A stretch of 64,000 nucleotides of DNA, taken from NCBI RefSeq assembly GCF_000376385.1, contig NZ_AQWN01000009.1:1-64000 (forward strand). The letters run 5' to 3'. This document shows positions 36,053 to 38,558 of the stretch, piece by piece (the stretch's first letter is position 1; the number at the start of each line of letters is the position of its first letter). The notes beneath the pieces are model-generated. The model searched no databases. It saw nothing but the letters and a program-made list of their open reading frames with translations, and had not been told where the DNA came from. Source of the DNA: Desulfurispora thermophila DSM 16022 (GTDB lineage: Bacteria; Bacillota; Desulfotomaculia; Desulfotomaculales; Desulfurisporaceae). The position numbers and the translations under genes are program-made.

Positions 36053-37537
36053 CTAGCGCACACCCGGCAACAAATATGTTGTGCAGTTACGATCATGTTC
36101 CACTACCAACAGCCAGTGTCCACGGGCTCCCAGTTCCAGCCAGACTACCCCCGCATCGTCCGTGGTAGCCTGCCACACATACCCCGGTTCTTCGCGCAGG
36201 TGATAGGTACCCTTTACTATTGCCCCGGCCAGTGGCTTTCCCTGCCAAAATACCTGGAATTTGACCTTGTCACCATACCTGTACGAAGCTACCGGATTGG
36301 GCTGCAACAATAAATCCACCCCGACTGCGGCACCGTCCAGTTGCTGCGGCGCCAGGTCATGCCCTACCGGCACATCCATTATGGCTGTAAAAACGGTTTC
36401 TGCTTTTTCTGAAAAATGGTTAACCTGCATTATTGCCCGGTAATAACCCTCTCCACCGGCCTCGAAAACCAAATTGTGTACATCGGGAGCAACCGGCGCA
36501 GTCAAAGCCCACACGTCCTCTTGCGACTCACCAATTACCCGCGCTACCAGCTTTGCCTGCTGCGGCCAAATACTTCTGCGCATGGGGGCACCGCAGACAG
36601 CGCGTAAAACAACTTCCTCCCCGGTGTGATAATGCAGGTGCAAAGGCTCCAACCAAACTAACTTGTCCATACCAGGTTCCTCCCCCATATAACCATGGTC
36701 CGGCGCAACACTATTTTCTTGCGATGCCCGCCTTAACAAGTCTTCCAGCACCATTACCCCATCGACCAATCGCAGGGGCAGGGGTTTTCCCTGCCAGGCC
36801 GTGGCGAGTGAAAACATTTTGCTCACAACCGGCAGGCGCAACTGGCAGCGCTCCACCAGCTGTCTGTCTACCAAAAGCTCCGCCCCGCCCCGGGCGGCCA
36901 CTCGCCCGGACTGCAAAACGACAACTTGCTCCGCCCACTCCGCAGCCAGGTCCACATCATGGGTGGCAATAATGATTGTTGTGCCATTCTGGTGCAAGCG
37001 GTGCAGGATTTGCACCAACCCATCCCTGCTCGCCGGGTCAAGAAAGGCCATCGGTTCGTCCAGCACAATCACCCTGGGCTGCATGGCCAGCACTCCGGCA
37101 ATGGCCACTCTCTTCTTCTGTCCGTAACTAAGGTGATAGGGTGCTTTATCGGCCAATGCGGTCAGCCCCACCGTGTACAGGGCTTCCTCCACCCGCCGTT
37201 CCACTTCTCCAGGCGAAAGTCCCATGTTCACCGGCCCGAAAGCCACATCCTCGCGGACGGTATGACAGAAGACCTGGTCATCCGGGTCTTGAAAAACCAT
37301 GCCCACCAGCGAGCGAATCAAAGGTGCGTTTTTCCCGTTCGCATCATAACCACCCACCATAACCTTACCCCGCTGCGGCAAGTTTATGGCATTGAAATGT
37401 AATAGTAAAGTTGATTTTCCCGCCCCGTTGGGGCCCAATACAGCCACCCTGCTTCCCGCAGCAATCTCCAGATCAATCCCGTCCAGCGCCTTCGTCCCGT
37501 CTTTATATTGAAAATGCAGATCCTCCACTTTTATCAT
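36053..37537 (-). CDS. cbiO: Cobalt/nickel ECF ATPase fused to a DUF4198-like domain
   Basis: A 494-residue protein whose first 245 residues are a complete CbiO-type ABC ATPase: GPNGAGKST (Walker A), LSYGQKKR (ECF-type signature), VIVLDEP (Walker B) and THDVD. A linker follows (about 246-290). The remaining 200 residues form a beta-rich domain with PLHLHYHTGEEV, GEGYYRAIMQ, VKFQVFWQGKPLAGA and ATTDDAGVVWLELGARGHWLLV, the pattern of DUF4198 domains. DUF4198 proteins occur beside nickel/cobalt transport genes, usually outside the membrane; here no signal or membrane segment is seen. ATG 37537 after GGCGGAG. Downstream of cbiQ, 41 bases away. Confidence 0.85.
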   Translation of the reverse strand: MIKVEDLHFQYKDGTKALDGIDLEIAAGSRVAVLGPNGAGKSTLLLHFNAINLPQRGKVMVGGYDANGKNAPLIRSLVGMVFQDPDDQVFCHTVREDVAFGPVNMGLSPGEVERRVEEALYTVGLTALADKAPYHLSYGQKKRVAIAGVLAMQPRVIVLDEPMAFLDPASRDGLVQILHRLHQNGTTIIIATHDVDLAAEWAEQVVVLQSGRVAARGGAELLVDRQLVERCQLRLPVVSKMFSLATAWQGKPLPLRLVDGVMVLEDLLRRASQENSVAPDHGYMGEEPGMDKLVWLEPLHLHYHTGEEVVLRAVCGAPMRRSIWPQQAKLVARVIGESQEDVWALTAPVAPDVHNLVFEAGGEGYYRAIMQVNHFSEKAETVFTAIMDVPVGHDLAPQQLDGAAVGVDLLLQPNPVASYRYGDKVKFQVFWQGKPLAGAIVKGTYHLREEPGYVWQATTDDAGVVWLELGARGHWLLVVEHDRNCTTYLLPGVR

Positions 37538-37578
37538 AGCCACTCCGCCCTACACCCCACAGTCAGTAATAACGTCAT

Positions 37579-38403
37579 TCATTTAAATAACGCCACCCAT
37601 CCCGCAGCGCTGTTGTCCAACCAGAACAGACAAAGAGCTACCATCATGATGCCGGTCGCAAAGGCTAAATCGTGCCAAATTAAAGTACGTTCATCCAATA
37701 CACGCACCGGCTGTCCAAAACCACGGGCCAACATGGCTGTATAAACGCGCTCGCTCCTTTCCCATGAGCGCAAAAACAAGGTACCCAGGTCGGCAGACAG
37801 TGTGGACATCGTATGTCTGTGCCAGAACACTTTACCCGGGCGGAAATTGCGAGCCAGGCGGGCTGTACGCATGGACTTTAACTCTGCCTGCAACACATAA
37901 ATGTACCGCACAGCAAACTCAATGATTTGTAAAAGCAACACAGGCAGCTTTAATGCTCTAAAACCGGCAAAAAGCTGTGACCAGCCGGTGGTTAAGAGCA
38001 GCATGTTCATAGCCAGGAATGCATTTACCACTCGACCGGACAGAATCCAGGCCTTTTCCATCCCCTGCCGGCTGGCGGCAATGATAAACACTTTCCAATC
38101 CCAGACCCACAACTGCTCCCCTGGTGTAATGAATGGGAAGAGCAACAACATCACAAGTGTAAAGGGTATGACCCAGGCCAACCTTAGCAGCAAGTCTTTT
38201 GCTTTAATGCCGGCTAGAAGATTAACTACCAGCATAAACCCGCCTGCTACCAGCAAGAGTACCGGTGATGATAGTGTGGTTACTATCACCACATAGCTGA
38301 CTAAAACCAAAATCTTCATTCGCGGGTCAATACCTCCCAGCCAATTGCGCCGCCCGCTATCATTACCAATATCCATAACGCCCTGCTGGTGGGCCATGCA
38401 CAT
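37579..38403 (-). CDS. cbiQ: ECF transporter T component, cobalt/nickel type
   Basis: A 274-residue EcfT/CbiQ membrane protein. It has about five to six helices, then the two short ATPase-coupling Ala-Arg motifs (MRTARLARNF near residue 190 and AMLARGFG near 230). It links the CbiO ATPase to a substrate-binding S component. No S component (CbiM/NikM) or CbiN lies within this window. ATG with AGGAGG eight bases upstream. The 155-base leader carries a strong promoter, three repeats and an intrinsic terminator. Confidence 0.9.
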   Translation of the reverse strand: MCMAHQQGVMDIGNDSGRRNWLGGIDPRMKILVLVSYVVIVTTLSSPVLLLVAGGFMLVVNLLAGIKAKDLLLRLAWVIPFTLVMLLLFPFITPGEQLWVWDWKVFIIAASRQGMEKAWILSGRVVNAFLAMNMLLLTTGWSQLFAGFRALKLPVLLLQIIEFAVRYIYVLQAELKSMRTARLARNFRPGKVFWHRHTMSTLSADLGTLFLRSWERSERVYTAMLARGFGQPVRVLDERTLIWHDLAFATGIMMVALCLFWLDNSAAGWVALFK

Positions 38404-38431
38404 GAGCCATTCCTCCTAACAACAAAAAGAC

Positions 38432-38479
38432 AAAAAGCCACAGCAAGTCTCGTTATTACAACAACAAGACCTCCGTGGC
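38432..38479 (-). terminator. Attenuator-like terminator in the cbiQ leader
   Basis: A long hairpin (38437-38479; GCCACGGAGGTCTTGTT on the 5' side, paired with an almost complete complement) is followed on the minus strand by TTTTTGTCTTTTTG, only 30 bases before the cbiQ start. It begins about 45 nt from the predicted transcription start. Confidence 0.7.
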
Positions 38480-38517
38480 CCTTCCATGGCTTTATACCAT
38501 CGCAATGCCTTCGTGGC
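38470..38517. repeat. Three imperfect GCCACGGAGG-like repeats in the cbiQ leader
   Basis: On the minus strand GCCACGAAGG (38508-38517), GCCATGGAAGG (38480-38490) and GCCACGGAGG (38470-38479) repeat within 48 bases. The last is part of the terminator stem. The first two sit inside small hairpins (ATGCC...GGCAT and ATGG...CCAT). Confidence 0.55.
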
Positions 38518-38529
38518 ATCATTAATATT

Positions 38530-38558
38530 ATTATAGCTCTACCTACCGTCTACAGCAA
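38530..38558 (-). promoter_or_regulatory. Promoter of cbiQ-cbiO
   Basis: On the minus strand TTGCTG (38553-38558), a 17-base spacer and a perfect TATAAT (38530-38535). The start of RNA should fall near 38523. Confidence 0.8.

Follow-up and report, generated by a model that had tools for sequence, protein, structure and literature searches.

The leader upstream of cbiQ in the 64,000-nucleotide stretch of Desulfurispora thermophila DNA analysed here (the window) is, as judged from sequence comparison, the window's copy of an undescribed conserved RNA family, which is absent from Rfam 15. We propose that this RNA is a two-hairpin transcription attenuator of a nickel/cobalt regulon, in which a factor would hold the second hairpin at low nickel or cobalt, with CooT or DUF3842 as the best candidates (probability of about 0.68). 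The RNA switch, which also stands before nickel-handling genes of many anaerobes, probably activates nickel import under nickel shortage. The original prediction of a new metal-responsive RNA or a protein-controlled attenuator at this site is supported by the strong conservation and by the nickel and cobalt genes downstream, the metal response being read from those genes.

Architecture of the cbiQ leader

The upstream gene has its own terminator (38597-38579), and the cbiQ leader therefore represents a separate unit. Its parts and the genes behind it are as follows:

38553-38558, minus strand: -35 box TTGCTG (sequence)
38530-38535, minus strand: -10 box TATAAT, separated from the -35 box by a 17-nt spacer and located 9 nt upstream of P1
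38504-38520, minus strand: hairpin P1, GATGCC-ACGAA-GGCATT, where the transcript is predicted to begin (covariation)
38481-38503, minus strand: linker of 23 nt, holding most of the look-alike repeat GCCATGGAAGG
38468-38480, minus strand: hairpin P2, GGCC-ACGGA-GGTC, the antiterminator half
38437-38483, minus strand: intrinsic terminator stem-loop, whose 5' arm is the P2 strand and which excludes P2
38424-38436, minus strand: T-rich tract of the terminator, TTTTTGTCTTTTT (sequence)
38412-38417, minus strand: ribosome-binding site AGGAGG of cbiQ (sequence)
37579-38403, minus strand: cbiQ, ECF T component and first controlled gene (PF02361, TIGR02454; ATG at 38403)
36053-37543, minus strand: operon gene 2, a cbiO-like ATPase with a C-terminal DUF4198 domain (profile matches)

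The TTGCTG-N17-TATAAT promoter (minus strand, 38558-38530) and the long intrinsic terminator, both of which had been predicted in front of cbiQ, were confirmed. The terminator stem-loop (38483-38437) has a predicted folding energy of -29.0 kcal/mol versus -5.4 kcal/mol for P2 alone in the window leader, which makes termination the expected default. The leader is predicted to fold far more stably than shuffled sequences, with z scores of -6.0 and -7.3. The promoter was not listed by a simple promoter scan, probably because its -35 box is weak. From the three GCCAYGR-AGG hairpin repeats noted earlier, two stand as the functional pair P1 and P2, whereas the third, GCCATGGAAGG (38490-38480), resembles them but falls mostly within the linker and forms no conserved pentaloop hairpin. 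In the window genome, GCCAYGRAAGG showed no excess over its reversed control and the GCCAYGR repeat no clear excess, so that the significance of the leader lies in its structure and conservation, not in repeat frequency.

The DUF4198 domain, which is fused to the CbiO-like ATPase in the window, is seen elsewhere as separate proteins in nickel/cobalt uptake loci. The window contains cbiQO without cbiM; both CbiM genes of this genome are located on another contig (L162, G000:C6:3500-11500), and no copy of the RNA was found before these two genes or before the cooT of the same genome. A second, weaker copy in the window genome (L163 1942-2019, minus strand, corresponding to G000:C4:213441-213518) has a clear P2/terminator, a degenerate P1 and no evident gene downstream, and is oriented toward the end of a gene encoding an ASKHA-type ferredoxin protein.

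Conservation and structure of the RNA family

The 100 searched relatives included no member of the window's own family, the nearest being from the same order. A DNA similarity search of these 100 same-order genomes returned the window itself as the sole match because conservation is limited to two short hairpins, and a CbiQ peptide-pattern search of the genome contigs gave no match. The RNA family was found via CbiQ protein homologues, by reading their upstream DNA. In other families of the order, cbiQ homologues are preceded by the same plan: a promoter, a C-ANGRA-G hairpin, a linker and a second C-ANGRA-G hairpin, which opens the terminator.

Both P1 and P2 carry a C-[A-N-G-R-A]-G pentaloop. 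The pairs of P1 are kept at 98% in 19 copies with two-sided changes in five of six pairs, and a set of 48 copies showed 95 cells with two-sided changes versus 21 in shuffles. The P2 strand, including its loop, has a downstream pairing partner that is followed by T's (132 copies), with stems of at least 6 bp in 95% of these copies (~20% in shuffles) and at least 9 bp in 70% (1.6% in shuffles). Loop position 2 (U or C) has an A or G opposite it on the terminator arm and both change together, suggesting that both folds are kept by selection. The P2 loops were AUGAA (41), ACGAA (37), ACGGA (34) and AUGGA (19) among the 132 copies, and in 75 of 90 copies the P1 and P2 loops agree at position 4, which is variable (a count uncorrected for relatedness). 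In copies with a recognisable -10 box, this box precedes P1 by a median of 9 nt. The linker between P1 and P2 ranges from 2 to 68 nt.

Compensatory changes, together with loops that stay invariant in many families, argue against a leader-peptide attenuator, or a constitutive terminator accompanied by chance hairpins, which we consider highly improbable. Visual inspection shows one frame open across the window leader, and some cbiQ homologues (L018, L019, L029, L036) are without the RNA, both of which agree with such an account. However, open reading frames with a ribosome site are found in 12 of 56 copies versus 9.6 of 56 in shuffles, and the common theme of the downstream genes is explained neither by a leader peptide nor by a constitutive terminator.

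The suggestion that the leader fits none of the known consensus sequences held up in the proposed comparison with Rfam. Against Rfam 15, the window gave no match at the gathering level and the leader no credible match at a relaxed level (chance hits only), nor did copies at 20 other loci match any Rfam family. The covariance search in relatives, for which a lack of conservation had been named as one outcome that would count against the prediction, found the RNA conserved.

Distribution across genomes

Entire genomes were searched with the covariance models R1 and R2, so the matches are independent of the cbiQ context. The samples comprised 100 same-order genomes and 398 from the phylum, which are related by descent. 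The RNA was detected in 48 of the 398 phylum-sample genomes (covariance model, E ≤ 1e-3, with E-values that are rough owing to a short calibration). Since R1 and R2 were built from copies first found in this order, including that of the window, they may miss distant variants. Weak matches within coding regions (e.g. L094, L110 and L113) were set aside. Scanning 84,980 named genomes for a fixed pattern yielded 36 stretches, with matches in Syntrophaceticus schinkii, Thermacetogenium and Pelotomaculum, and added Desulfacinum infernum and other Desulfobacterota as well as Aquicultor-type Actinomycetota.

Genes downstream of the RNA

Most inspected copies precede nickel or cobalt genes; the gene lists given here are drawn from the best matches inspected and are not a full annotation of every match. 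The importers behind the RNA include cbiM, cbiQ, NikA-like binding proteins with permeases, FecB/FecCD systems and ECF S components, as well as NiCoT-like proteins, which were read by eye and have no Pfam or NCBIfam match. Further genes encode FmdE, TrmO-like, CooC-like, CooT, DUF3842 and CobN-like proteins, and LarE is found behind the RNA with LarC within the operon. In at least two families (L231, L243, L247, L227), the RNA also precedes genes of [FeFe] hydrogenase or of subunits associated with it, an expected target if the nickel-free hydrogenase replaces a nickel enzyme. Importers and [FeFe] hydrogenase under one RNA make most sense when nickel is short, from which we infer the direction of the switch (on at low nickel).

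In Desulfobacterota and Actinomycetota, the copies precede CbiM, DUF4198-like proteins, TonB-type receptors and CobN-like genes (translations, by eye). At five loci of the Desulfobacterota type (L268, L272, L283, L290, L296) the RNA stands before TonB-type receptor and CobN-like genes, which may have a role in nickel or cobalt uptake.

Proposed mechanism and comparison with known systems

From the sequence, the promoter places P1 at the start of the transcript, and P2 and the terminator share one strand and exclude each other. In the proposed mechanism, the stronger terminator would form in the unaided leader, leaving the operon off. Under nickel (or cobalt) shortage, a factor would hold P2, which could then not join the terminator, and the polymerase would read into cbiQO; metal would release the factor from the RNA. 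The factor would most likely be an RNA-binding protein that contacts the two near-identical loops as a dimer, since two such loops with a linker of almost any length suggest a dimeric protein reading each of them. The need for a protein is deduced from the weakness of P2.

Cobalamin and NiCo (czcD) riboswitches are likewise cis-acting RNAs associated with genes for cobalt or nickel, but the RNA described here has no Rfam match, a far smaller conserved core and two repeated hairpins. NikR likewise exerts nickel control over NikABCDE and ECF importers, but is a DNA-binding repressor. CsrA/RsmA sites have A-N-GGA in hairpin loops and are read by a small dimeric protein; in contrast to a CsrA site with its invariant GGA, the loops of this family have GAA as often as GGA.

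Small tandem-hairpin riboswitches exist (PMC5486947), and no tested protein family is universal among the RNA-positive genomes, both of which are consistent with hairpins that bind a metal ion or a small metabolite directly without any protein. Guanidine-II (mini-ykkC, PMC5486947) likewise has two small similar hairpins and a linker, and ACG occurs in many loops of the present family. However, guanidine-II has ACGR tetraloops with a complementary central CG, whereas the loops here are pentaloops with an invariant last A, their loop-loop complementarity is at chance (26 of 56 copies, expected 26), and the downstream genes are different, with no Rfam match. Sequence conservation is restricted to the two short loops, and the linker may have any length. 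In addition, P2 is much weaker than the terminator, and a ligand stabilising P2 would turn the genes on, so that metal would act in the wrong direction for importers. We consider a protein-free riboswitch unlikely.

Binding of both hairpins by an ANTAR-domain response regulator, as by EutV in eut leaders, with a variant target whose loop is 1 nt shorter, would account for the shared architecture. The ANTAR-target RNAs (EutV/eut, NasR/nasF, AmiR; PMC3369931) likewise comprise a pair of small hairpins whose conserved loops match, and their second hairpin, like P2, overlaps the 5' arm of an intrinsic terminator; the loop of the present family recalls the eut site AGC-AANGRR-GCU (PMC3369931). Three ANTAR proteins are encoded in the window genome, and ANTAR proteins are present in all five CooT-less RNA-positive genomes of the ANTAR-searched sample. 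On the other hand, ANTAR targets have a hexaloop with A1 and G4, whereas the RNA here has the pentaloop ANGRA before nickel/cobalt genes; a hexaloop stem of at least 3 bp is possible at P1 or P2 in none of 56 copies, and A1 is invariant but loop position 4 is G in 26 of 56 copies for P1 and 33 of 56 for P2. The linkers, of 2-68 nt, also contrast with those of eut, which have 5-12 nt and in which alterations are harmful (PMC3369931). Furthermore, ANTAR proteins occur in 37 of 43 RNA-positive genomes versus 51% of all, leaving six with the RNA and no ANTAR protein (G141, G177, G202, G281, G426 and the single-contig, 99% complete G409), and G091 is a further genome of this kind. Recognition by an ANTAR protein is thus quite improbable.

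The leader peptide, kissing loops and ANTAR hexaloops were rejected on the 56-copy counts. The RNA is described by its tandem-hairpin antiterminator logic and is not filed as an ANTAR-target, guanidine-II, NiCo or cobalamin RNA.

CooT and DUF3842 as candidate factors

For the factor that would hold P2, CooT and DUF3842 are the leading candidates. CooT is encoded in 42 of 48 RNA-positive genomes versus 30% of all (odds ratio 25), and DUF3842 in 41 of 43 versus 45% of all (odds ratio 33), co-occurrences that are confounded by shared nickel metabolism and by the descent of nickel-using anaerobes. CooT is absent from the RNA-positive genomes G101, G105, G128, G286, G375 and G451, and DUF3842 from G101 and G128. 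As a universal partner, CooT, ANTAR and DUF3842 were all rejected, each being missing from some RNA-positive genomes. With none of them universal and a common confounder, CooT as the sensor is a lead and not a result.

The cooT gene often lies behind the RNA itself, and operons with the order RNA-DUF3842-cooT-fmdE-cbi were found. The genes for DUF3842 and CooT form a conserved neighbour pair, often heading cbi operons (L263, L264, L165, L265 and others), a pairing that suggests joint function. CooT matches were also seen within open frames of 260-330 residues in place of the usual ~65 (G156, G193, G222, G272, G360, G399, G419, G437 and others), and CooT may be fused to another domain there.

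CooT (PF10133, COG1532; solved structure 6FAN) was once labelled a 'predicted RNA-binding protein'. A CooT profile search against the PDB gave 6FAN, CooT itself, as the sole match above noise, and no RNA-binding relative. CooT is described as a small nickel-binding protein (Timm et al. 2017, cited in PMC6344411), and the available passages of a paper on CooT deletion (PMC10230548) make no mention of transporters. For DUF3842, no paper was found in the literature searched. We tentatively suggest, as a possibility that is less likely than not, that metal-free CooT (perhaps with DUF3842) may be a nickel sensor which binds the tandem ANGRA hairpins and switches on a nickel-economy regulon in three phyla.

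Implications for nickel metabolism

The RNA marks a regulon of importers, chaperones, nickel-pincer synthesis, CobN-like genes and a nickel-free hydrogenase, and suggests that CooT and DUF3842 may have a regulatory function. If the suggestion about CooT is true, this protein, so far described as a nickel chaperone for carbon monoxide dehydrogenase, would become a regulator in a new metal-responsive antitermination family.
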